IMG/VR virus record: IMGVR_UViG_3300020420_000069 | Span: 1-21,817 of that record | Length of the DNA stretch: 21,817 bases | From: a virus | Strand: one strand, 5' to 3' | In this document: piece by piece, positions 444-9,415 of the stretch | How the letters are laid out: every line of letters starts with the position of its first letter | Position numbering within the stretch: the first letter of the stretch is position 1 | Notes under the pieces: model-generated | What the model saw: the letters and a program-made list of their open reading frames with translations, nothing else | The model's database searches: none | What the model was told of the DNA's origin: nothing | Translations under genes and position numbers: made by a program

Positions 444-626
444 ATGGCTACAGCCAAAGACGCGTTGCACAAAATAGAGACGCACGAAAGAGAGTGTGCG
501 TTACGCTATGAGAATATTGAAAAACGCCTAGAAGAAGGCTCAGAAAAATTTGTACGTTTAGAAAATTTATTGTGGGGAGTCTACCCATTTATTGTAGGAG
601 CCATAGTCGTCACAAGATTTTTATGA
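444..626 (+). CDS. XhlA-like small membrane protein (holin-associated candidate), 60 aa
   Basis: The protein has a charged, helical N-terminal two thirds with coiled-coil character (residues about 5-42, including KIETHERECALRYENIEKRL) and one C-terminal membrane helix (LLWGVYPFIVGAIVVTRFL). This is the plan of the XhlA family, small proteins that act with holins in some phages and prophages; the match is by architecture, not by a diagnostic motif. I chose ATG 444 because it sits directly after the upstream stop; an in-frame ATG at 375 would lie deep inside the previous gene. The stop overlaps the next start (ATGA, 623-626), implying translational coupling. Confidence 0.65.
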   Translation: MATAKDALHKIETHERECALRYENIEKRLEEGSEKFVRLENLLWGVYPFIVGAIVVTRFL

Positions 627-958
627 ACGAAGAAACTCCAAAGACAGAGCCAAGCGAAGCACCAATCAAAAGAAAACTAGAGCTCGATATAGATGTAACA
701 CCCAAAAATGATGGCGACAATCCTTTTGCAAAATGGGTGCACCTAGCTAAAACCATAGATGCCTGGCGCATTTTTCCGAGGATCTTCGTTAGCGTTTACA
801 TTGTCTTACTTTACAAAGTTGTCATTTGGTTTATGGCCTTGCCAGAACCTAACCTTGAACAGTCAGCTTTGGTTTCTATAGTGGTGGGTGCGATGGCAGC
901 AGTGTTTGGTATCTACGCTGGCACATCCGGGCAAAGCAAAAAGTTCAAAGGCGAGTAA
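623..958 (+). CDS. two-helix membrane protein, holin candidate, 111 aa
   Basis: A hydrophilic N-terminal arm of about 50 residues, rich in Glu, Lys and Pro, precedes two hydrophobic segments: FPRIFVSVYIVLLYKVVIWF, then ALVSIVVGAMAAVFGIYAG, separated by a short polar turn. The C-terminus is short and basic. Small proteins with two membrane helices next to lysis genes are typical phage holins (class II topology). ATG 623 overlaps the previous stop, and this gene's TAA overlaps the next ATG (958). An in-frame ATG at 572 would overlap the upstream gene by 55 bases and is less likely. Holin function is inference from size, topology and context; a role as a general inner-membrane virion or moron protein is not excluded. 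Confidence 0.65.
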   Translation: MNEETPKTEPSEAPIKRKLELDIDVTPKNDGDNPFAKWVHLAKTIDAWRIFPRIFVSVYIVLLYKVVIWFMALPEPNLEQSALVSIVVGAMAAVFGIYAGTSGQSKKFKGE

Positions 959-1251
959 TGGAAGTCTTCAATCTAATAACAGAGTTAGGTGTACCGATTG
1001 CAGGCGCCTTAATTATGGCTTATTTTATTTTTTTAGTTATGAAACAACTTATGGATGGTTTAGTCAGTGAAATTAAAACAGTACAAGGTATTACGCAGAT
1101 GCTAATTACCAGAGCTTCAATTATGAACAACGACATGATTAGAATTGATACTTTGGTATCAGCTGCCCTTGATTTATCACCTGACTTGGATCGAATAGCT
1201 AGAGCTGAAAACTTTGTCGAAGACGGCAAAATCGACGCTCGTAGAGATTAA
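958..1251 (+). CDS. single-helix membrane protein, BhlA/holin-like, 97 aa
   Basis: The N-terminus carries one strong membrane segment (residues about 8-30, LGVPIAGALIMAYFIFLVMK) followed by a long soluble helical region with regular hydrophobic spacing. This short N-terminal helix plus cytoplasmic coiled coil is the layout of BhlA/UviB-type holin-like proteins. The following gene has the same layout and a similar opening (V-Q-L-V-A-D-F-G-F-P-V here compared with F-N-L-I-T-E-L-G-V-P-I), so the two look like diverged tandem paralogues. The start overlaps the previous stop (TAATG). Function is inferred only from architecture and the nearby lysis genes. Confidence 0.6.
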   Translation: MEVFNLITELGVPIAGALIMAYFIFLVMKQLMDGLVSEIKTVQGITQMLITRASIMNNDMIRIDTLVSAALDLSPDLDRIARAENFVEDGKIDARRD

Positions 1252-1253
1252 AC

Positions 1254-1544
1254 GTGGATGTCGTACAATTAGTCGCGGACTTTGGCTTCCCGGTAGTTAT
1301 GGTCGTTGGTTTAGGCTATTTTGTTTATTATGTTTGGCAGACGATAACCAATACGATAGATCCTGCTGTCCAAGAAATGAAAACTACTATCATAAGACTT
1401 ACCGACCAATTACGACTTTTAGACCAAGATATGATACGCTTGAAAGAGAAGGTAGGGACAGTTATGGAACTCAAAGAGGAAAATAAACTGAAAGATGAGA
1501 AGACAGAAAAGCCAAAAGACACTAGAACAAGAAAGAAAGATTAA
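1254..1544 (+). CDS. single-helix membrane protein, BhlA/holin-like paralogue, 96 aa
   Basis: The only sensible start is GTG 1254, two bases after the upstream stop; no in-frame ATG precedes the membrane segment. Residues about 5-30 form one hydrophobic helix (FGFPVVMVVGLGYFVYYVW), followed by a coiled-coil-like region (EMKTTIIRLTDQLRLLDQDM) and a very charged lysine/glutamate-rich tail. The layout repeats that of the previous gene. The last 50 bases also encode the start of the CsgF-like protein in another frame, which ties the holin-like genes to the curli-like block in one transcription unit. Holin-type function is plausible but unproven. Confidence 0.6.
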   Translation: MDVVQLVADFGFPVVMVVGLGYFVYYVWQTITNTIDPAVQEMKTTIIRLTDQLRLLDQDMIRLKEKVGTVMELKEENKLKDEKTEKPKDTRTRKKD

Positions 1545-2007
1545 AGATTGGTTTGCTTTTATTGGCATAGGTTTCATATTTTTTACTATCTTATTTGGCT
1601 CTATACAAAGTGTTTTTGCTGACCAAATCACGCATAAATTTAAAAGCCCTAGTTTTAACGGTGTTGGTACTTCTAGTCATTATTTGACGATTGAAAACCA
1701 AGAATATAGTCGTAAATTGACCATCAAAGAAGAACTAGAAGCCATACAAGACGAAATAGAGCGAGACAAAGAAAACACGACTTTAGCTCGATTTGTGCGT
1801 AATTTAGAGTCAAGGGTCTATGCGCAACTATCTAGGCAGCTCGTGGAAAACCTATTTGGCGATGTGACAAAAACCTCTGGCACCTTAGAGCTAGAAAACA
1901 ACTTAATCAGTTATACTAGCGATGGCGTGACAATAACATTAACAATTACAGACCCAGATGATAATACGACTGAAATTTCTCTGCCTATTGGCTCTTTTAC
2001 TTTCTAG
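1495..2007 (+). CDS. csgF: CsgF-like curli assembly / secretion-channel accessory protein
   Basis: In curli-producing bacteria CsgF is a small secreted protein whose N-terminus inserts into the CsgG pore and links secretion to fibre nucleation at the cell surface. Here a basic n-region (residues 1-18) and a hydrophobic core (19-42) end in a plausible signal cleavage after VFA (residue 42). The mature protein starts with the CsgF hallmark: HKFKSPSFNG (47-56), comparable to FRNPNFGG of the E. coli protein as I recall it. A charged helical middle (about 75-120) and a beta-rich end (about 130-170, ending PIGSFTF) match the remaining CsgF architecture. The mature part is about 128 residues, close to the usual 119. 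Only ATG 1495 precedes the signal peptide. The gene overlaps its upstream neighbour by 50 bases and csgG by 50 bases. Confidence 0.82.
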   Translation: MRRQKSQKTLEQERKIKDWFAFIGIGFIFFTILFGSIQSVFADQITHKFKSPSFNGVGTSSHYLTIENQEYSRKLTIKEELEAIQDEIERDKENTTLARFVRNLESRVYAQLSRQLVENLFGDVTKTSGTLELENNLISYTSDGVTITLTITDPDDNTTEISLPIGSFTF

Positions 2008-2827
2008 TTGTGCAATTCACGAAGTAATCCAAGACACCGAAAAGCAAAGATACAAAAGCAAAGGTACAACCGAAGCAACTATTTATGACCTGCAATCTAA
2101 AGCTTTGCTTAATGTTTTAGCGCCTAAAACCATGCCTGTGGTAGCAGTCTACGGCAACGCTTTTACCGATCAAACAGGCCAACGAAAAAGCAATAGCGAG
2201 TTTGCTTTATTTTCTACAGCTGTCACTCAAGCTCCAAGCGCTCTTTTAGTAAGAGCCTTGAAACATGCAGCCGATGGTAAATTTTTTCGCGTCGTAGAGC
2301 GTGTTGGTTTAGATAATTTAGTTAAAGAAAGACAATTAATCAGATCTGCTCGAGAACAATTTGCTGAAAAAGAAGAAGATAAAACCATCCAACCACTTTT
2401 ATTTGCTGGTGTCTTGCTTGAAGGTGCTGTCCTAAGTTATGATACTAACTTAACGAGTGGAGGCGCAGGTGCCCGTCTGCTCGGCATTGGTGGTAGTGTT
2501 CAGTACCGAGAGGACACGGTGAGCGTAAGTTTACGGATGGTGTCTGTTGCTACTGGCGAGGTGCTCTTAGAAGTTACCAGTCAAAAAACCATATTTAGCT
2601 ATGGTAAATCCAACGACGTATTTAAGTTTTTTGAAGCTGGTACTGAGTTGATTGAAATAGAAATAGGTTCGGCTCGGAATGAAAGCACGACAATAGCTTT
2701 AATGAAAGCCATTGAAAGTGCTGTTTTAGAACTGATAAATTTAGGTTATGACAGGAGTTTTTGGACACATGAAGTTAAAATTACTAAACCTTGCACTACT
2801 GATGAGTGTGACGATATACGCGGCTGA
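1958..2827 (+). CDS. csgG: CsgG-like outer-membrane curli secretion lipoprotein
   Basis: CsgG forms a nonameric outer-membrane channel for unfolded curli subunits. This 289-residue protein is full length and has a lipoprotein signal with lipobox L15-S-S-C18. Blocks matching the family as I recall it include PVVAVYGNAFTDQTGQ (60-75), STAVTQAPSALLVRAL (86-101), FRVVERVGLDNLVKERQLIR, GGAGARLLGIGGSVQY and TGEVLLEVTSQKTIFSY, ending with the C-terminal helix and DRSFW. The loop that forms the pore constriction in E. coli (Tyr51, Asn55, Phe56) aligns to residues 76-85: Phe85 is kept, the residue before it is Leu, the Tyr is not conserved, and there is a one-residue insertion. The start lies inside csgF in another frame, and its last 59 bases also encode the next signal peptide. 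This is the most secure call of the block. Confidence 0.93.
   Translation: MIIRLKFLCLLALLLSSCAIHEVIQDTEKQRYKSKGTTEATIYDLQSKALLNVLAPKTMPVVAVYGNAFTDQTGQRKSNSEFALFSTAVTQAPSALLVRALKHAADGKFFRVVERVGLDNLVKERQLIRSAREQFAEKEEDKTIQPLLFAGVLLEGAVLSYDTNLTSGGAGARLLGIGGSVQYREDTVSVSLRMVSVATGEVLLEVTSQKTIFSYGKSNDVFKFFEAGTELIEIEIGSARNESTTIALMKAIESAVLELINLGYDRSFWTHEVKITKPCTTDECDDIRG
2753..2757 (+). promoter_or_regulatory. ribosome binding site deciding the start of the curlin-like gene
   Basis: AGGAG lies 11 bases before ATG 2769 and only two bases after the alternative ATG 2748, so it can serve the former but not the latter. Starting at 2769 also gives a clean signal peptide. Confidence 0.6.
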
Positions 2828-3494
2828 TAACGAAATCTATATAGATCAATCTGGTACGCAAGCTAATATAGATTTAGAACAAATTGGTAGTAGCAATATT
2901 ATCGGCGGTTTACAAGCTGTACCGGGAACTATGACTCCGTTGAATCTCAATGGTAATAACATGACTTTGGATATAAACATGATTGGTAATTCCAACAAGT
3001 TTTTGGGAGATATTCTGGCTGATACTTATACAGGGTTCTTTCAACTAGATGGTGATAGTAATATTTTTACTATGCAAACAGATCCTACCAACACTTACGG
3101 AGCTGATAATTCTAATGTAAATGTAAACGTCACAGGTGGCTCAAATTTAATGACCTTAAATCATGCTACCTCAGCTCTAGCTAGTCAGTTAGACTTAGAT
3201 TGGATTATCAACGGTTCTAGTAACCAGATTACATCTAATATTAATTACGATGGCGCAACTAATTATATGGACATAGATGGTGATTCAAACAGCATAAACT
3301 TTACGGGTAGTGGCTATGCTGGTGGGTATTTTTATTGGGATCATACTGGGAACAACACTGCTCTTAACATTCAACAGCTGAGTACCCAAGACAATGATTG
3401 GCTCAAAATTATATCTTCATCAAACAATACTGGTAATACTGCTTCTACTTTGTGCGTCATTCAAAACGACCAAGGCACAAGCACAGGTTGTTGA
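2769..3494 (+). CDS. secreted curlin-like repeat protein (diverged amyloid subunit candidate)
   Basis: A signal peptide (residues 1-18 or 1-19, cleavage after YA or YAA) is followed by about 220 polar residues rich in Asn, Ser, Gly, Asp and Thr with alternating hydrophobic strands. The first repeats fit the curlin pattern Q-x-G-x-x-N: Q27-S-G29 to N33, and Q38-I-G40-S-S-N43 exactly. Further on, x-G-x-x-N turns recur at irregular spacing (IGNSN, DGDSN, GGSN, NGSSN, DGDSN, TGNN), each followed by a short hydrophobic strand, as in a beta-solenoid. The C-terminus holds two cysteines 13 residues apart. It is probably the cargo of the adjacent CsgG/CsgF channel, by position and repeats. It is more degenerate than CsgA or CsgB, so it could also be an adhesin. 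The last 101 bases also encode the FecR signal peptide. Confidence 0.7.
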   Translation: MKLKLLNLALLMSVTIYAADNEIYIDQSGTQANIDLEQIGSSNIIGGLQAVPGTMTPLNLNGNNMTLDINMIGNSNKFLGDILADTYTGFFQLDGDSNIFTMQTDPTNTYGADNSNVNVNVTGGSNLMTLNHATSALASQLDLDWIINGSSNQITSNINYDGATNYMDIDGDSNSINFTGSGYAGGYFYWDHTGNNTALNIQQLSTQDNDWLKIISSSNNTGNTASTLCVIQNDQGTSTGC

Positions 3495-4524
3495 GAGTAT
3501 TGGCGATATATCAGAACTAAATGGTCAAGCACAAATAGTTAGAGATCAGCCTTACGACGCTAAGTTACAGTTCTCAATCCAACAAAACGATGAAGCCATA
3601 ACCAATAATGGTCGTATGGCTATTACTTTTTTAGATGATAGCACTGTGCGTCTGACTGAACATTCACAACTTATTGTGGACGAATATATTTTTGACCCAG
3701 ATCCGTCAAAATCCAAGATGGCTTTGACTTTTGGTTTAGGTACAGCACGATTCATAACAGGTAATTTAAAGAGAATTGATAAACAAAACATCAAACTTAA
3801 AACACCTACGGCAAATATAGCTATTCGTGGTACAGATTTCACTACCACCGTAGACGAATTAGGGCGCAGTCTTATCATTCTACTGCCAGACCCTTTTGGT
3901 TTGTCTAGTGGCGAAATAGAAGTGACTACGGCTACAGGGTCAGTCATACTCAATCAGCCATTTGAAGCCACCACAGTATCAGTCTTTGAGACCAACCCAA
4001 CGCCACCTGTCATTTTAGATTTAAGTTTGAACGCTATTGATAACATGCTGATTGTTAGACCCCCTAAGCGTGAACAAATAGTGCAAACAGAACAAAACCG
4101 CAGCAGAAAGGCAAATTTATTAGATTTTAATGACTTAGATGTAGATTATTTAGATAAAGATTTTTTGCGAAACGACGATTTGGAGTTCACTGAGCTTGAT
4201 ATTAATTATTTGGACGTAAATTTTTTAGAAGATTTATTAGATGTATTAGATGCTCTAGCGATTGGCGAAGAAGAAGACCAGTTGCAACAAGTAACCGGGA
4301 TTAACATATCTGGAACTTTAATTGGTCAAGACCCAGACACGCAAATAACTACTATTGTGACTGGCCAACAAATTAGTTTACGGCGTATGGTTAGCGATTC
4401 CGCTCGAGTAGATGTCAATGGTAACAATGCTTACACCGTCATATTTATACAAGATGGTACGTCTAATGTTGTTAAAATAAATGGTGGTAGTGATTCAACT
4501 ATTACTATCACACAGAGTAATTGA
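3394..4524 (+). CDS. FecR-domain periplasmic/surface protein with curlin-like C-terminus
   Basis: The 376-residue protein starts with a signal peptide (residues 1 to about 30, core TILVILLLLCASF, cleavage near AQA). The FecR domain follows (about 35-170), recognised from the spacing of GRMAITFLDDSTVRL, LGTARFITGNL and KLKTPTANIAIRGTDFTT. Residues 242-288 are a leucine/aspartate repeat (LDVDYLDKDFL, LDINYLDVNFL). The end (340-376) returns to curlin style: Q353-D-G355-T-S-N358 exactly fits Q-x-G-x-x-N, between beta strands VIFI, VVKI and TITI. FecR domains sense or relay envelope signals; here the next gene is a CHASE2 cyclase, a natural partner. The start is deep inside the curlin-like gene, but no other start gives a signal peptide. 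Its TGA overlaps the cyclase ATG. Confidence 0.85.
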   Translation: MIGSKLYLHQTILVILLLLCASFKTTKAQAQVVESIGDISELNGQAQIVRDQPYDAKLQFSIQQNDEAITNNGRMAITFLDDSTVRLTEHSQLIVDEYIFDPDPSKSKMALTFGLGTARFITGNLKRIDKQNIKLKTPTANIAIRGTDFTTTVDELGRSLIILLPDPFGLSSGEIEVTTATGSVILNQPFEATTVSVFETNPTPPVILDLSLNAIDNMLIVRPPKREQIVQTEQNRSRKANLLDFNDLDVDYLDKDFLRNDDLEFTELDINYLDVNFLEDLLDVLDALAIGEEEDQLQQVTGINISGTLIGQDPDTQITTIVTGQQISLRRMVSDSARVDVNGNNAYTVIFIQDGTSNVVKINGGSDSTITITQSN

Positions 4525-6284
4525 TGAAATATTTAATATTACCTTTGCTTATATTACTGACTTTACCTTTGGTTTTTGTCAGTACACCTACTGAAATCCT
4601 CAAACTTAAAACTTTTGATACCTTAGTTAAACCGCAAACAGAAAGCGGTAATTTTGTAATTTTAAATATAACCGAAACAGATTTACAAAAAGAAGGTGGT
4701 TGGCCAATGCCTAGAAGTAGATTGGCAGAACTTAACGAATTGCTATTGGCAAAAGGTGCAACTGGCGTTGGCTGGGTCATAGCCTTTCCTCAACCAGATC
4801 GTTTGAATGGCGACCAAGAGTTTGCTGATTCGTTGCGTTTAGGACCTAGCATCTTAGCTACTTTTGAAAACTCTGCTGGTGTTTTTCCGAAAACTACAGG
4901 CACCATAATCAAAGGTAATTTAGTCGGAGGCTTAGAAACCGTAGGCGTCATAGAAAATACCGAAATTTTAAAAAACGCTACCGCTCAAGGCATTGCGGTT
5001 GCACCAGTTGATGTCGATAATTTAGTAAGGCGTTTGCCTTTGCTTTTACGCACCCCAGATGGTTGGGTTTCAGCTTTTGGCACTGAGGTCTTAAAAGTCC
5101 TAACTGGTACTCGCTCCTACATTATTACCACTAACGAAATAGGTATACAAGAAATAGCGGTACGCGGTCTACCACCAGTTAAAACTGACAAATACGGACG
5201 CAAATGGATTTCTTGGGTGAACACTCCCAAAACAAATTTAGCTGAAATGAATGTGGCTGGACGTTTTGTTTTTGTTGGTATTACAGCGCCCGGTATCATG
5301 CCACAGCTTGCTACACCCATAGGTTTGTTAGAGCCACACAAAATTCAAGCGGCTTTGTCTGAAAGCATTTTGATACAAAACTCACCTATAATCCCAGAAT
5401 ACAGTTTACTTGCAGAGCTCCTAATTTTAACAACCACAGCTTCTTTAGTTTGGTTGTTATTATTTTATTTAGGCATAAGCGCAGGTTTGATTAGTGCTAG
5501 TTTGGTCTTCATAGGCACTACAATCTTAGGCATTTATTTGATTCGTGTAGGCTTGTTAATAGACGTAACCTGGACACTTATCAGTCAAATCTTAGTTGGA
5601 GCTACGGCTTTTTATTTACGCTTTCGTGAACAATACAAGTTGCGTCTGCAAATAAAAAAACAGTTTGAGCATTATTTAGATCCGCGACAGATAAAACGCC
5701 TACAAGACAATCCAGAGCTTTTAAAACTCGGTGGTGAAAAAAAGACGGCAACCTTCCTTTTTACCGATGTCAGAGGTTTTACGGCTATGTCTGAGTCTTT
5801 GCCTCCAGAAAAAGTTACTTACATTATGAACAAAGCTTTGACAGCACAACAAACAGCTGTGCAAAAACACGACGGCATGGTTGATAAATACATAGGTGAT
5901 GCCATGATGGCGATATTTAACGCGCCTTTAGATTTACCAGAGCATCAACACAAAGCCATAGATTGTGCTGTAGACATAGTAAAAAATATGGCAGAACTCA
6001 ACAAAAAATTACAGACAGAAGGCTTGCCAGAAATAGCCATCGGCATAGGCATCAATACAGGCGAAGCTGTTATTGGCAACATGGGTAGTGCAACTCGTTT
6101 TGATTACACGGCAATCGGCGATGCAGTAAATATAGCAGCGAGATTAGAAAGTGCGACAAAAGAGCTAAAAGTGAATATACTAATTGGTAAAGACACTGCA
6201 AATAGTTGTCAATATGATTTAAGATACTTAGATGATATACAAGTAAAAGGAAAAGCATTTCCAATAAAAGTTTATGGGATTTAA
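4524..6284 (+). CDS. CHASE2-domain class III adenylate cyclase
   Basis: This is a membrane-bound sensor that makes cAMP from ATP. An N-terminal membrane anchor (residues 1-20) leads into a periplasmic CHASE2 domain (about 25-285, with GWPMPRSRLAELNELLLAKG). Three membrane helices follow (about 295-365), then a linker ending EHYLDPRQIKRL and the cyclase domain. The metal-binding aspartates are D415 (FTDVRGFT) and D459 (KYIGDAMMAIF). K455 and T529 sit at the base-specifying positions, a Lys/Thr pair that indicates ATP rather than GTP. N536 and R540 (NIAAR) are the transition-state residues. The set is complete, so an active enzyme is expected. ATG 4524 overlaps the FecR stop; the gene overlaps the i-spanin start by 11 bases. 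An enzyme of this kind in the middle of a phage late region is unusual. Confidence 0.93.
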   Translation: MKYLILPLLILLTLPLVFVSTPTEILKLKTFDTLVKPQTESGNFVILNITETDLQKEGGWPMPRSRLAELNELLLAKGATGVGWVIAFPQPDRLNGDQEFADSLRLGPSILATFENSAGVFPKTTGTIIKGNLVGGLETVGVIENTEILKNATAQGIAVAPVDVDNLVRRLPLLLRTPDGWVSAFGTEVLKVLTGTRSYIITTNEIGIQEIAVRGLPPVKTDKYGRKWISWVNTPKTNLAEMNVAGRFVFVGITAPGIMPQLATPIGLLEPHKIQAALSESILIQNSPIIPEYSLLAELLILTTTASLVWLLLFYLGISAGLISASLVFIGTTILGIYLIRVGLLIDVTWTLISQILVGATAFYLRFREQYKLRLQIKKQFEHYLDPRQIKRLQDNPELLKLGGEKKTATFLFTDVRGFTAMSESLPPEKVTYIMNKALTAQQTAVQKHDGMVDKYIGDAMMAIFNAPLDLPEHQHKAIDCAVDIVKNMAELNKKLQTEGLPEIAIGIGINTGEAVIGNMGSATRFDYTAIGDAVNIAARLESATKELKVNILIGKDTANSCQYDLRYLDDIQVKGKAFPIKVYGI

Positions 6285-6681
6285 GTTAAGTATTATTTTA
6301 GGAGTTTTATTAGTGACCACAATATCTGGCTCTGCTTTCTATGTTAAATATCTAAATGGCCAAGTAGCTACCTTAAAAGCTAATCAAATCGTGTTGACGG
6401 ACAAAATAACCGAACAAAATGAATCAATCAAAAATTATCTACAAAAACAAAAAGAAACCATGCAAGAAATGGCAGCCTTAGAGGATGCCAAGCAAGAAGC
6501 CATGCGTGCTGTAACAGAATTAAGAAATAAGTTTGCTCGCCACGATCTCAACAATTTAGCTTTGATGAAGCCTGGCTTAATTGAAAGAAGAGTAAATGCG
6601 GGCTCAAAAAAAGTTTTTGATGAGTTAATGTCAATTACATCCCCCTATGTAAAAGATGAAAATATCTCTCCTAATAATTAG
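6274..6681 (+). CDS. i-spanin-like inner-membrane protein (Rz-type)
   Basis: One N-terminal membrane helix (residues about 4-25, LSIILGVLLVTTISGSAFYV) is followed by a long periplasmic coiled coil (about 28-90, rich in Gln, Lys and Glu) and a short C-terminal part with KFARHDLNNLALMKPGLIERR. This topology, the length of 135 residues and the overlapping downstream lipoprotein gene are the signature of an Rz/Rz1 spanin pair, which bridges inner and outer membranes and fuses them at the end of lysis. No catalytic function is expected. It starts inside the last codons of the cyclase gene, so it is translated from the same message as the curli-like block. The call rests on architecture and context because spanins diverge strongly in sequence. 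Confidence 0.78.
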   Translation: MGFKLSIILGVLLVTTISGSAFYVKYLNGQVATLKANQIVLTDKITEQNESIKNYLQKQKETMQEMAALEDAKQEAMRAVTELRNKFARHDLNNLALMKPGLIERRVNAGSKKVFDELMSITSPYVKDENISPNN

Positions 6682-7027
6682 CTCATTGTTTGTCTTGGGT
6701 AGTTGTTCAATACTGCCCAAGGCACAACCTATAGACGTCAGAACGATAGCTGAAATACCACCTATGTACCACCCGCCTTTACCTATGGAGATACAAGGCG
6801 TGCCAGTGAAATGGAAAGTTCTGACACCAGAAATCATGGAAGAATACCTAGCTTTAGTAAAAGAAGGCAAAGCACCAGCTATGCCTTATTACGCGCTAAC
6901 CACGCAACAATATGAAAATTTGTCAGTCAATATGGCTGAAATTACCAGATACACAAAAAATATTTTATCTATAGTTGAATATTATAGAAATTACGATCAA
7001 CCAAAAAAGGAGAATAGTGATGAGTGA
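6656..7027 (+). CDS. o-spanin-like outer-membrane lipoprotein (Rz1-type)
   Basis: A lipoprotein signal (MKISLLIISSLFVLGSC, lipobox L-G-S-C17) begins 26 bases before the end of the i-spanin gene, in another frame. This is the overlapping arrangement typical of Rz and Rz1. The mature part is about 106 residues with a proline-rich start (IPPMYHPPLPMEIQGVP), as often seen in o-spanins, and a helical C-terminus with a charged tail. The partner is the i-spanin encoded just upstream: together they would span the periplasm and disrupt the outer membrane in lysis. The gene's TGA overlaps the nuclease start. An unrelated lipoprotein remains possible, but the overlap makes the spanin reading strong. Confidence 0.78.
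   Translation: MKISLLIISSLFVLGSCSILPKAQPIDVRTIAEIPPMYHPPLPMEIQGVPVKWKVLTPEIMEEYLALVKEGKAPAMPYYALTTQQYENLSVNMAEITRYTKNILSIVEYYRNYDQPKKENSDE
7008..7012 (+). promoter_or_regulatory. ribosome binding site deciding the nuclease start
   Basis: AGGAG, within AAAAAAGGAG, ends seven bases before ATG 7020. It favours this start over an in-frame ATG at 6975 that would lie well inside the o-spanin gene. Confidence 0.65.
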
Positions 7028-7400
7028 CAATCCAGATGCTTTTGTTTATCAAGCAGAGTTAGATAGGGTGGTAGATGGCGATACCGTAGATGTAATTTTA
7101 GATTTAGGCTTTGATGTCAAGTTACACAAACAAAGAGTACGGTTAGCAGGTATTGACACACCAGAATCAAGAACACGAGATTTAGCTGAAAAAAAATTAG
7201 GTTTGGCTGCCAAAGAAAGACTCAAAGAACTTTGTGTTGGAACTTTCAAGATTAAGTCGCTTGGTAAGGGTAAGTACGGCAGAATTTTAGGCATACCGTA
7301 CACCGAAGATGGACAAGATATATGTCAAATGCTAATCAAAGAAGGACACGCTGTTGTTTACGATGGCGGTAAAAAAAGCAAAGTATGGGGAGATTATTAA
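7020..7400 (+). CDS. staphylococcal nuclease-like (SNase) endonuclease
   Basis: This 126-residue protein belongs to the thermonuclease family, which cleaves DNA or RNA with calcium. The full active site is visible: D21 (VVDGDTV), R41 with D46, T47 and E49 (VRLAGIDTPES), and R88 (GKYGRILG). Counterparts in the Staphylococcus enzyme are D21, R35, D40, T41, E43 and R87. The protein has only the core domain, and I see no signal peptide, so it probably acts in the cytoplasm, for example on host DNA or RNA or at genome processing. It sits between the o-spanin and the lysozyme; its last base is the first base of the lysozyme ATG (TAATG). The role in infection is inferred. Confidence 0.92.
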   Translation: MSDNPDAFVYQAELDRVVDGDTVDVILDLGFDVKLHKQRVRLAGIDTPESRTRDLAEKKLGLAAKERLKELCVGTFKIKSLGKGKYGRILGIPYTEDGQDICQMLIKEGHAVVYDGGKKSKVWGDY

Positions 7401-7843
7401 TGAAAATATCAGAAGAGGGCAAAGCTTTAATAAAAAAGTTTGAAGGTTGTGAATTAGAGGCATATTTATGCCCAGCTGGTTACTGGACGATAGGTTACGG
7501 ACACATCAAAAGCGCAAAAGAAGGCAAAACCATCAGTCAAAATGAAGCAGATGTTTATTTGACAAAAGATTTAGAGGAATTTGAAAGCTATGTAAACAGC
7601 ATGGTTAAAGTACCTTTAGAACAAAATGAGTTTGATGCTCTTGTGTGTTGGACTTTTAACTTAGGTCCAACAAACTTAGGTTCTTCAACTTTGCTCAAAG
7701 TTTTAAATCAAGATAAAAAAAACGAAGTACCAGCACAGTTAAAAAGATGGAACAAAGCTGGTGGCGAAGTTTTAGAAGGTTTGATTAGAAGAAGAGAAGC
7801 GGAAGCGCTTTTATTTCAAGGCAAAGAATGGCACGAAGTATAG
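7400..7843 (+). CDS. phage lysozyme (endolysin, glycoside hydrolase family 24)
   Basis: The enzyme cuts the glycan strands of peptidoglycan at the end of infection. The GH24 signature E-8aa-(D/C)-5aa-T is exact: E15, C24 and T30 (FEGCELEAY then YWTIGYGH). The rest (LTKDLEEFE, FDALVCWTFNLGPTNLGSSTLL, GLIRRREAEALLF) is typical, and 147 residues is a normal size. There is no signal peptide, so it must reach the wall through a holin; the membrane proteins at 444-1544 are the candidates. The second catalytic position is Cys rather than Asp, which is common in phage enzymes. ATG 7400 follows a GGGGAG at 7387-7392; an in-frame ATG at 7385 overlaps the nuclease gene and is disfavoured. Confidence 0.95.
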   Translation: MKISEEGKALIKKFEGCELEAYLCPAGYWTIGYGHIKSAKEGKTISQNEADVYLTKDLEEFESYVNSMVKVPLEQNEFDALVCWTFNLGPTNLGSSTLLKVLNQDKKNEVPAQLKRWNKAGGEVLEGLIRRREAEALLFQGKEWHEV

Positions 7844-7880: not shown

Positions 7881-7920
7881 GGTTGTGCAATTACTATGTC
7901 ACTACCTAATTGTGCAACCC
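7880..7920 (+). promoter_or_regulatory. long stem-loop between lysozyme and terminase genes
   Basis: GGGTTGTGCAATTA (7880-7893) and TAATTGTGCAACCC (7907-7920) form an uninterrupted 14-pair RNA stem (two pairs are G-U) with a 13-base loop. It lies 10 bases before the terminase ATG. No T-run follows, so it may be an RNA processing site, a block to translation, a weak terminator or a protein-binding site. The core TTGTGCAA also occurs as a direct repeat in both arms. With the preceding hairpin it occupies most of the 87-base gap between the two genes. Confidence 0.5.
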
Positions 7921-7930
7921 GCTTAATTTT

Positions 7931-9415
7931 ATGGATTTAAACAAGCTTAAAGACTTTGATATATTGTCTGAGCAAGACAAACAAGAAGCGCTTGCTTTAC
8001 TCAATCGTTATGAACAAATTGACAAGCAAGATGAGTGTCAGGGTGATTTTATTAGTTTTGTCAAACATCTTTGGCCAGAGTTCATTGAAGGTAGGCACCA
8101 TAAAATTATTGGCGAAAAATTTAATCGCATAGCACAAGGTAAACTAAAAAGACTAATTGTTTGTTTACCGCCTCGACATTCCAAATCAGAATTCGCTTCT
8201 ACTTATTTTCCTGCATGGATGATGGGTAGAAAAGGTGATTTAAAAATAATACAAACCACGCATACCGCTGAATTAGCTGTGCGTTTCGGTAGAAAAGTAA
8301 GAAATATAATTGATAGCCAAGAATATCAGCACATTTTTCCAGAGCTTAAATTACAAGCCGATAATAAATCAGCTGGTCGTTGGACTACCAACCAAGAAGG
8401 TGAAAGTTATTATGCTGGTGTAGGTGGTGCAATAACAGGACGTGGTGCCGATTTACTTATAATTGATGATCCACATTCAGAGCAAGATGCTTTGTCGCCA
8501 AAAGCTATGGAATCTGCTTATGAGTGGTATACCTCTGGACCCAGACAGCGTTTACAACCGGGTGGCACGATTGTGATAGTGATGACACGTTGGAGTACCA
8601 AAGATTTGGTTGGTAAAGTTTTAAAAAAACAAGGTGAAGAAAATGCTGATCAATGGGAGGTGGTTGAGTTTCCTGCCATCATGCCAGATTCAGAAAAACC
8701 TTTGTGGCCAGAATTTTGGAAAAAAGAAGAATTGCTTTCGGTAAAAGCTTCTTTACCTCTGCCTAAATGGAATAGCCAATGGTTACAAAACCCAACTGCT
8801 GAGGAAGGCAGTATTGTCAAACGTGAATGGTGGCGACGCTGGGACGAAGACCATGTTCCAGAATACAATTATGTAATCCAAAGTTATGATACGGCTTTCT
8901 CAAAAAAAGATACCGCAGACTATTCTGCTATAACGACTTGGGCGATTTTTGGCGACAATGAAGAAAATCCAGAAGGTATAATTTTATTAGACGCAAAAAG
9001 AGTTCGAGTAGATTTTCCAGAGCTAAAAAAAATAGCTTTGGAAGAGTATCGTTATTGGGAACCAGATTGTGTTTTAATTGAAGCCAAAGCATCAGGTACC
9101 CCACTGACTCAAGAGTTGCGTAGAATGGGTATACCTGTCACGGCATACTCGCCAAGTCGCGGTCAAGACAAAATAGCAAGAATGAATAGTGTCGCACCAA
9201 TTTTTGAGTCAGGCATGGTTTGGGCTCCAGAACATGAGTTTGCAGATGAAGTTATAGAAGAAATGGCAAGTTTTCCTTATGGCGATCACGATGATTATTG
9301 CGATAGTGCTACAATGGCGTTGATGCGATTCCGACAAGGCGGTTTTTTATCTTTGAAAGAAGATTATCAAGAGGATGCTAAGTTTATGCGTAAAAACAGG
9401 ACGGTTTACTACTGA
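7931..9415 (+). CDS. terL: terminase large subunit (TerL)
   Basis: TerL is the motor and nuclease that packages DNA through the portal. The ATPase half shows a Walker A-type motif LPPRHSKSE (79-87) and Walker B LLIIDDP (175-181), with the segment MTRWSTKDLVGK after it. The nuclease half (RNase H fold) has D320 (SYDTAFSKKDTADYSA), an acidic residue in VLIEAKASGTPL, and the terminal aspartates of HDDYCDSAT (D454, D455, D458). The length of 494 residues is normal. I chose ATG 7931; a TTG at 7910 would place the start inside the stem-loop. No small terminase subunit is recognisable in the window. The portal follows after one tiny gene, the usual order. The call is secure. Confidence 0.95.
   Translation: MDLNKLKDFDILSEQDKQEALALLNRYEQIDKQDECQGDFISFVKHLWPEFIEGRHHKIIGEKFNRIAQGKLKRLIVCLPPRHSKSEFASTYFPAWMMGRKGDLKIIQTTHTAELAVRFGRKVRNIIDSQEYQHIFPELKLQADNKSAGRWTTNQEGESYYAGVGGAITGRGADLLIIDDPHSEQDALSPKAMESAYEWYTSGPRQRLQPGGTIVIVMTRWSTKDLVGKVLKKQGEENADQWEVVEFPAIMPDSEKPLWPEFWKKEELLSVKASLPLPKWNSQWLQNPTAEEGSIVKREWWRRWDEDHVPEYNYVIQSYDTAFSKKDTADYSAITTWAIFGDNEENPEGIILLDAKRVRVDFPELKKIALEEYRYWEPDCVLIEAKASGTPLTQELRRMGIPVTAYSPSRGQDKIARMNSVAPIFESGMVWAPEHEFADEVIEEMASFPYGDHDDYCDSATMALMRFRQGGFLSLKEDYQEDAKFMRKNRTVYY

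Follow-up and report, generated by a model that had tools for sequence, protein, structure and literature searches.

A FecR-domain protein with a curlin-like tail and its neighbouring CHASE2 adenylate cyclase in the curli cassette of an HTVC023P-like phage

The single IMG/VR virus record IMGVR_UViG_3300020420_000069, analysed here over 21,817 bases and called the window, possesses a curli cassette in which a secreted FecR-domain protein (fecR, 3394..4524, 376 amino acids) is encoded directly before a CHASE2 class III adenylate cyclase (4524..6284, 586 amino acids); these and the other window genes whose coordinates are written below with two dots lie on the + strand. A preliminary description had proposed the pair as an envelope sensor linked to curli-like genes, and had remarked that a phage with both a secretion channel and such a signalling enzyme would be an unusual regulatory system. 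The gene cluster is not new. A csgF-csgG-csgA/B-fecR-(csgA/B)-AC cluster, in which AC is the adenylate cyclase and is often preceded by a second CsgA/B, was described in HTVC023P-type podoviruses and pelagimyophages together with metatranscriptome evidence of expression (Wittmers 2022, PMC9599517). Pelagibacter phage HTVC008M and Methylophilales phage Melnitz carry the cluster too, with the genes in the same order, and the window is a further member of it. The unreported part is the candidate adaptor, a FecR protein with a curlin-like tail. We tentatively favour, with limited confidence, a reading in which FecR serves as the link from curli export to CHASE2 and thereby gates cyclic AMP (cAMP) late in infection.

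The window FecR matches PF04773 (E=1.9e-9) and phrog_37870 (E=3e-68). Its N-terminus is hydrophobic and ends in ...AQA, and residues ~1-30 (3394..3483) form a putative Sec signal peptide without a lipobox, in agreement with the signal peptide noted earlier. The FecR domain (residues 36-210, 3499..4023) was modelled by AlphaFold2 with a predicted local distance difference test score (pLDDT) of ~90, and is similar to the PupR structure 6ovk_R (Z=15.4) and to 4m0n (Z=14.4). It is followed by an acidic linker of low confidence (residues ~220-300, 4051..4293, pLDDT mostly <50) and by a C-terminal beta-domain (residues 298-376, 4285..4521), which reached a pLDDT of 91.8 and a predicted TM-score (pTM) of 0.81 when folded alone. 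A sequence search of solved structures with FecR gave nothing useful. The domain layout rules out an anti-sigma identity of the FecR/PupR type, because the FecR domain begins directly after the signal peptide and no anti-sigma domain is present. A Pfam scan of ten neighbouring proteins found neither an extracytoplasmic function (ECF) sigma factor nor a TonB-dependent transducer.

The end of the C-terminal domain (4429..4521) is a curlin-like terminal repeat, identified by motif and profile comparisons, which closes with YTVIFIQDGTSNVVKINGGSDSTITITQSN before the stop codon. The motif QxGxxN was found in 68 of the 94 distinct phage FecR tails, against 6 of 1978 other open reading frames (ORFs). 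Likewise, 149/150 phage FecRs end in hydrophobic-x-hydrophobic-x-Q, compared with 22/1349 in the comparison set, and this ending is also present on six out of 31 bacterial FecRs linked to CHASE2. The FecR tail profile matched that of phage curlin tails (E=4e-6, probability 87%), whereas the CsgG control gave 0.1%. Sequence comparison therefore supports the curlin resemblance of the tail, although homology is not proven. Among the sampled bacterial-genome loci, strong matches to the C-terminal domain were limited to phage-type FecRs, and outside phage-type loci a single marginal match was obtained, to an unrelated ORF. A weak Pfam match to CsgH appeared in only 3 of 43 tails. The first curlins of the cassettes, in turn, share a conserved two-cysteine ending, CVIQNDQGTSTSC, at their C-termini (3357-3491 in the window, and homologues).

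Genes fecR and cyclase overlap by one nucleotide, since the TGATG at 4522-4526 contains both the fecR stop and the cyclase start; the cyclase ORF was listed from TTG 4521, and its 586 amino acids are counted from ATG 4524. Upstream, fecR overlaps the curlin-like ORF (2748-3494) by 101 nucleotides. Both the gapless arrangement and the position of the pair downstream of a curlin-like gene in an overlapping operon, as first described, were thus confirmed. The pair and its order recur in ~160 marine viral loci, which are the best matches to the window, and the order of the cassette is almost fixed. In 111 of 125 loci fecR is immediately upstream of the cyclase, and in twelve a second curlin lies between them. 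Locus L165 carries a C-5 cytosine methylase gene between the two (1694-2800). Ratios of nonsynonymous to synonymous substitution (dN/dS) were 0.06-0.07 for FecR and 0.07-0.21 for the cyclase, and both genes are under purifying selection. Because the pair and its order recur in so many viral loci with low dN/dS, the association is not due to chance.

Linkage to the curli genes was also found when the phage loci were anchored on csgG. Where the contig left room, fecR was downstream in 60/60 loci and the cyclase in 45/45, so that the linkage withstood the objection that these genes might occur unlinked in relatives. Compared across phages and bacteria, the synteny held only in the former, as neither FecR nor CHASE2 was detected within 8 kb of csgF in any of 37 bacterial loci. 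Therefore, only phage-type loci were seen to combine the two modules. Phage-type csg-FecR-cyclase contigs were also present in metagenome-assembled genomes labelled Pelagibacter, Maricaulis, Neomarinimicrobiota, Sphingobacteriales and Flavobacteriaceae (L163-L170, L207). These contigs are probably misbinned viruses and could mislead curli surveys.

Away from curli genes, FecR beside CHASE2 is a general and widespread bacterial pair with interchangeable outputs. Sixty CHASE2 genes were drawn from Pseudomonadota genomes, which also supplied 40 control regions. A fecR gene was found at <=6 kb from 31/60 of the CHASE2 genes and from 0/40 of the control regions (Fisher p=1.8e-9), and all 31 linked FecRs were verified by Pfam. 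The output domains of the FecR-paired CHASE2 proteins were cyclases (19), histidine-kinase ATPases (8) and GGDEF domains (3). Previously described cases include the BiofilmReg system of Burkholderia, with FecR/LysM and a CHASE2 kinase (PMC5192318), the CHASE2 cyclase clusters with FecR of Campylobacterota (PMC9239204), and Sinorhizobium meliloti, in which the FecR gene SMc02177 is located beside the CHASE2 cyclase CyaD1 (PMC5498481). CyaD1 stripped of CHASE2 produces cAMP constitutively in S. meliloti, so CHASE2 can be inhibitory (PMC5498481). The SAR11 CHASE2 proteins that were scanned possess a SpoIIE output and adjoining FecR genes. On SAR11 chromosomes, this FecR-CHASE2-SpoIIE phosphatase locus has TPR and outer-membrane-barrel neighbours (L191 3856-11633; L175, L182, L184-L186, L193).

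Covariation along the cassette, measured as distance correlations over 84 loci, relates the two parts of FecR to different partners. Distances of the FecR domain correlated with those of CHASE2 (r=0.74, partial 0.39) and less with those of the cyclase domain, although it is encoded by the same gene as CHASE2 (r=0.36, partial 0.11), while distances of the FecR tail correlated with those of CsgG (partial r=0.74). This gives weak support to a coupling of FecR and CHASE2, since the pattern may owe something to linkage decay and to chimeras in the metagenomes. The correlation with FecR and CsgG falls sharply near cyclase residues 360-400, a pattern suggestive of recombination where CHASE2 meets the cyclase domain, as if cyclase domains were exchanged behind a conserved CHASE2.

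The tail also bears on the main rival explanation, that FecR is a structural curli part, a CsgB-like nucleator or surface anchor exported via CsgG, and that the cyclase is an independent neighbour. The curlin-like C-terminus with its CsgB-like pattern, the covariation of the tail with CsgG, and the presence of its terminal motif in second curlins agree with such a role. Nevertheless, bacterial FecR pairs with CHASE2 while bacterial curli loci have neither, and the FecR domain tracks CHASE2 and possesses a signalling fold. We consider the purely structural role rather unlikely. One FecR could do both structural and signalling jobs.

The window cyclase combines CHASE2 (PF05226, E=9.5e-29; 4563..5444), membrane-spanning segments predicted from hydropathy at residues 294-348 (5403..5567), and a class III catalytic domain (Guanylate_cyc, PF00211, E=9.4e-23; 5742..6257); CHASE2, catalytic domain and flanking transmembrane (TM) segments are thus found in one protein, which also matches phrog_35576 (E=1e-117). 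All six catalytic sites are present, namely the two metal-binding Asp (D415, D459), the adenine-site Lys and Thr/Ser/Asp (K455, T529), and the transition-state Asn and Arg (N536, R540), numbered from ATG 4524. Across 214 cyclases, D416/K456/D460 (numbered from 4521) were present in 214/214, the T/S/D position in 212, N in 211 and R in 212. The enzyme thus looks catalytically complete, as previously assumed, and is predicted to synthesise cAMP. Among the viral loci, the adenine site carries T roughly as often as S.

In the tentatively favoured reading, phages would have attached a bacterial-type FecR-CHASE2 envelope receptor to a curli export cassette. FecR would be exported to the periplasm, where its FecR domain may pair with CHASE2 of the cyclase, and the C-terminal domain may tie it to the CsgG/CsgF/curlin system as bound cargo, nucleator or export sensor. 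With curlin or CsgG bound to FecR, CHASE2 inhibition would then be released or imposed, and cAMP production in the host would change. Expression would probably be late, alongside lysis, because the genes sit without gaps between holin-like and spanin/endolysin genes. A bolder form of this proposal is a phage-built transenvelope sensor of curli export, unknown in bacteria, in which the curlin-tailed FecR reads CsgG or curlin, controls the CHASE2 cyclase, and brings foreign cAMP into SAR11; we regard this form as possible but doubtful.

Several results weigh against the favoured reading. The Pfam curlin model applied to the window FecR tail alone was not significant (E=0.11), and fold searches with the tail domain (Foldseek, VIA-align) found no clear match (best Z 3.6). 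The linkage figures mainly reflect close relatives, as the viral loci are the best matches to the window. Covariation weakens between genes that lie further apart in the cassette, so linkage accounts for some of the FecR-CHASE2 correlation. The bacterial CHASE2 and viral loci yielded no natural fusion of FecR with CHASE2. In S. meliloti, SMc02177 is dispensable for the perception of the plant signal (PMC5498481), which by analogy warns against FecR as an obligatory or simple co-receptor. Finally, cyclic nucleotide (cNMP)-binding domains were found in two of the 60 sampled Pelagibacteraceae genomes, leaving 58/60 in which no cNMP receptor was found, and PF00027 was absent from 17 phage records (the window, Melnitz, HTVC008M and 14 further viral records, with several fragments in the set), so a phage-encoded cAMP receptor was also rejected for these records. 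Because receptors are nearly absent from both samples, the predicted cAMP output has no known target. Class III cyclases were likewise present in two of the 60 genomes, one on a phage-type contig (L163) and the other a 596-amino-acid CHASE2 cyclase with phage-like scores. A search on cAMP and CRP in SAR11 found no paper in the literature collection used.

The scarcity of receptors also bears on another explanation, in which FecR and the cyclase sense iron or the state of the envelope and use cAMP to control curli gene transcription. A cAMP-based transcriptional regulation has been suggested for the pelagiphage type VIII secretion system (T8SS), and in Gammaproteobacteria cAMP leads to transcription of CsgD (Wittmers 2022, PMC9599517); the FecR name and the co-occurrence of a cyclase are in line with this. 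Nonetheless, cNMP receptors are nearly absent from the sampled Pelagibacteraceae and phage records, the FecR domain lacks a preceding anti-sigma domain or a membrane anchor, and the scanned neighbours include no sigma gene. Promoter and terminator scans of the window gave counts near those of shuffled sequence, and promoter-like sites showed no excess over it. Such a transcriptional sensor appears highly unlikely.

The remaining genes of the region follow the order holin-like, two single-TM, csgF, csgG, curlin-like, fecR, CHASE2 cyclase, Rz, Rz1, nuclease, lysozyme and terminase (5'->3'). Both the CsgG pore (1958..2827, PF03783 E=5e-47, lipobox LLSSC) and CsgF (1495..2007, PF10614 E=2.8e-14) of the curli (type VIII) secretion system are present. 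The curlin-like gene (2748..3494) has degenerate repeats with a single QxGxxN motif and no PF07012 match, and was assigned from its conserved position and homologues; PF07012 is matched by the curlins of the phages Melnitz and HTVC008M. Upstream are a holin-like protein with two hydrophobic segments (617..958), assigned from hydropathy and a position conserved among the viral loci, and two small proteins with a single TM segment each and a match to phrog_18771 (958..1251 and 1254..1544), the second with a weak holin match. The latter two are paralogous proteins of 96-97 amino acids, and may correspond to the "histidine kinases" of Wittmers 2022 (PMC9599517); a kinase domain was found in neither. 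Downstream, the cyclase overlaps by 11 nucleotides an Rz-like spanin (6274..6681, phrog_739 E=1e-13), which is followed by an Rz1-like outer spanin lipoprotein (6656..7027, phrog_812 E=1e-15), a staphylococcal-nuclease-like gene whose position shifts among relatives (6975-7400), a phage lysozyme, the endolysin gene (7385..7843, PF00959 E=5e-48), and the HTVC023P-type terminase large subunit (7910..9415, PF17289, 63% to 023Pt_psg01).

These neighbours suit the explanation that the cyclase perturbs the late-infection host, through ATP use, cAMP acting on a target in the host or its neighbours, or lysis timing, and that its curli linkage reflects a co-transferred block of late cargo. In many loci holin-like genes precede the cassette and spanin/endolysin genes follow it, cAMP would be an orphan signal with no evident receptor, and phage CsgGF has been proposed as a possible lysis regulator (Buchholz 2022, PMC9004378). 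However, the modules of HTVC008M and Melnitz have no annotated lysis genes on their flanks, and the FecR tail and the tight linkage favour functional coupling. We hold this explanation to be distinctly unlikely.

Terminase and capsid mark the phage as HTVC023P-like, at 57-64% to HTVC023P, HTVC027P, 023Pt_psg01 and DSL-LC04; comparison with known phages at the DNA level gave no match. A SAR11-like host is likely, because the guanine-plus-cytosine content of the window (~38%) is near that of HTVC023P, HTVC027P and 023Pt_psg01 (35-37%) and far from the 55% of DSL-LC04, a gammaproteobacterial phage. Curli clusters occur widely among phages that infect SAR11, which are among the most abundant ocean bacteria. 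If the favoured reading is true, cAMP would be a measurable readout of what the curli cassette does and when, FecR would supply a partner for CHASE2, and the phage would import a second-messenger enzyme into hosts seemingly devoid of such a circuit.

Compared with known systems, the window cyclase domain matches PycC models of the Pycsar anti-phage system. Identity with Pycsar was not supported, as the cyclase match is only generic and a search of the record for one effector type, a cNMP-binding PF00027 protein, found none. The FecR/PupR anti-sigma regulators share the periplasmic FecR signalling fold (6ovk, Z=15.4), but the window FecR has only a signal peptide in place of their cytoplasmic anti-sigma domain and TM anchor. 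Similar to E. coli curli, the window encodes CsgG and CsgF homologues and a FecR tail that is CsgB-like (8/1000 shuffles as good), while neither CsgD nor CsgE was found among the neighbouring proteins scanned. Bacterial FecR and CHASE2 operons also encode an extracytoplasmic FecR-domain protein beside a CHASE2 membrane signalling protein; they differ in that the sampled FecRs lack the phage-type tail domain, the output domain is variable, and neither FecR nor CHASE2 lies near the 37 bacterial csgF loci. The CHASE2 domain is never named in Wittmers 2022 (PMC9599517), and the sections considered here do not discuss the FecR tail domain or the FecR-CHASE2 pairing. The window differs from the pelagiphage T8SS cluster in lacking a second curlin, and shares with it the csgF-csgG-curlin-fecR-AC order on one strand.

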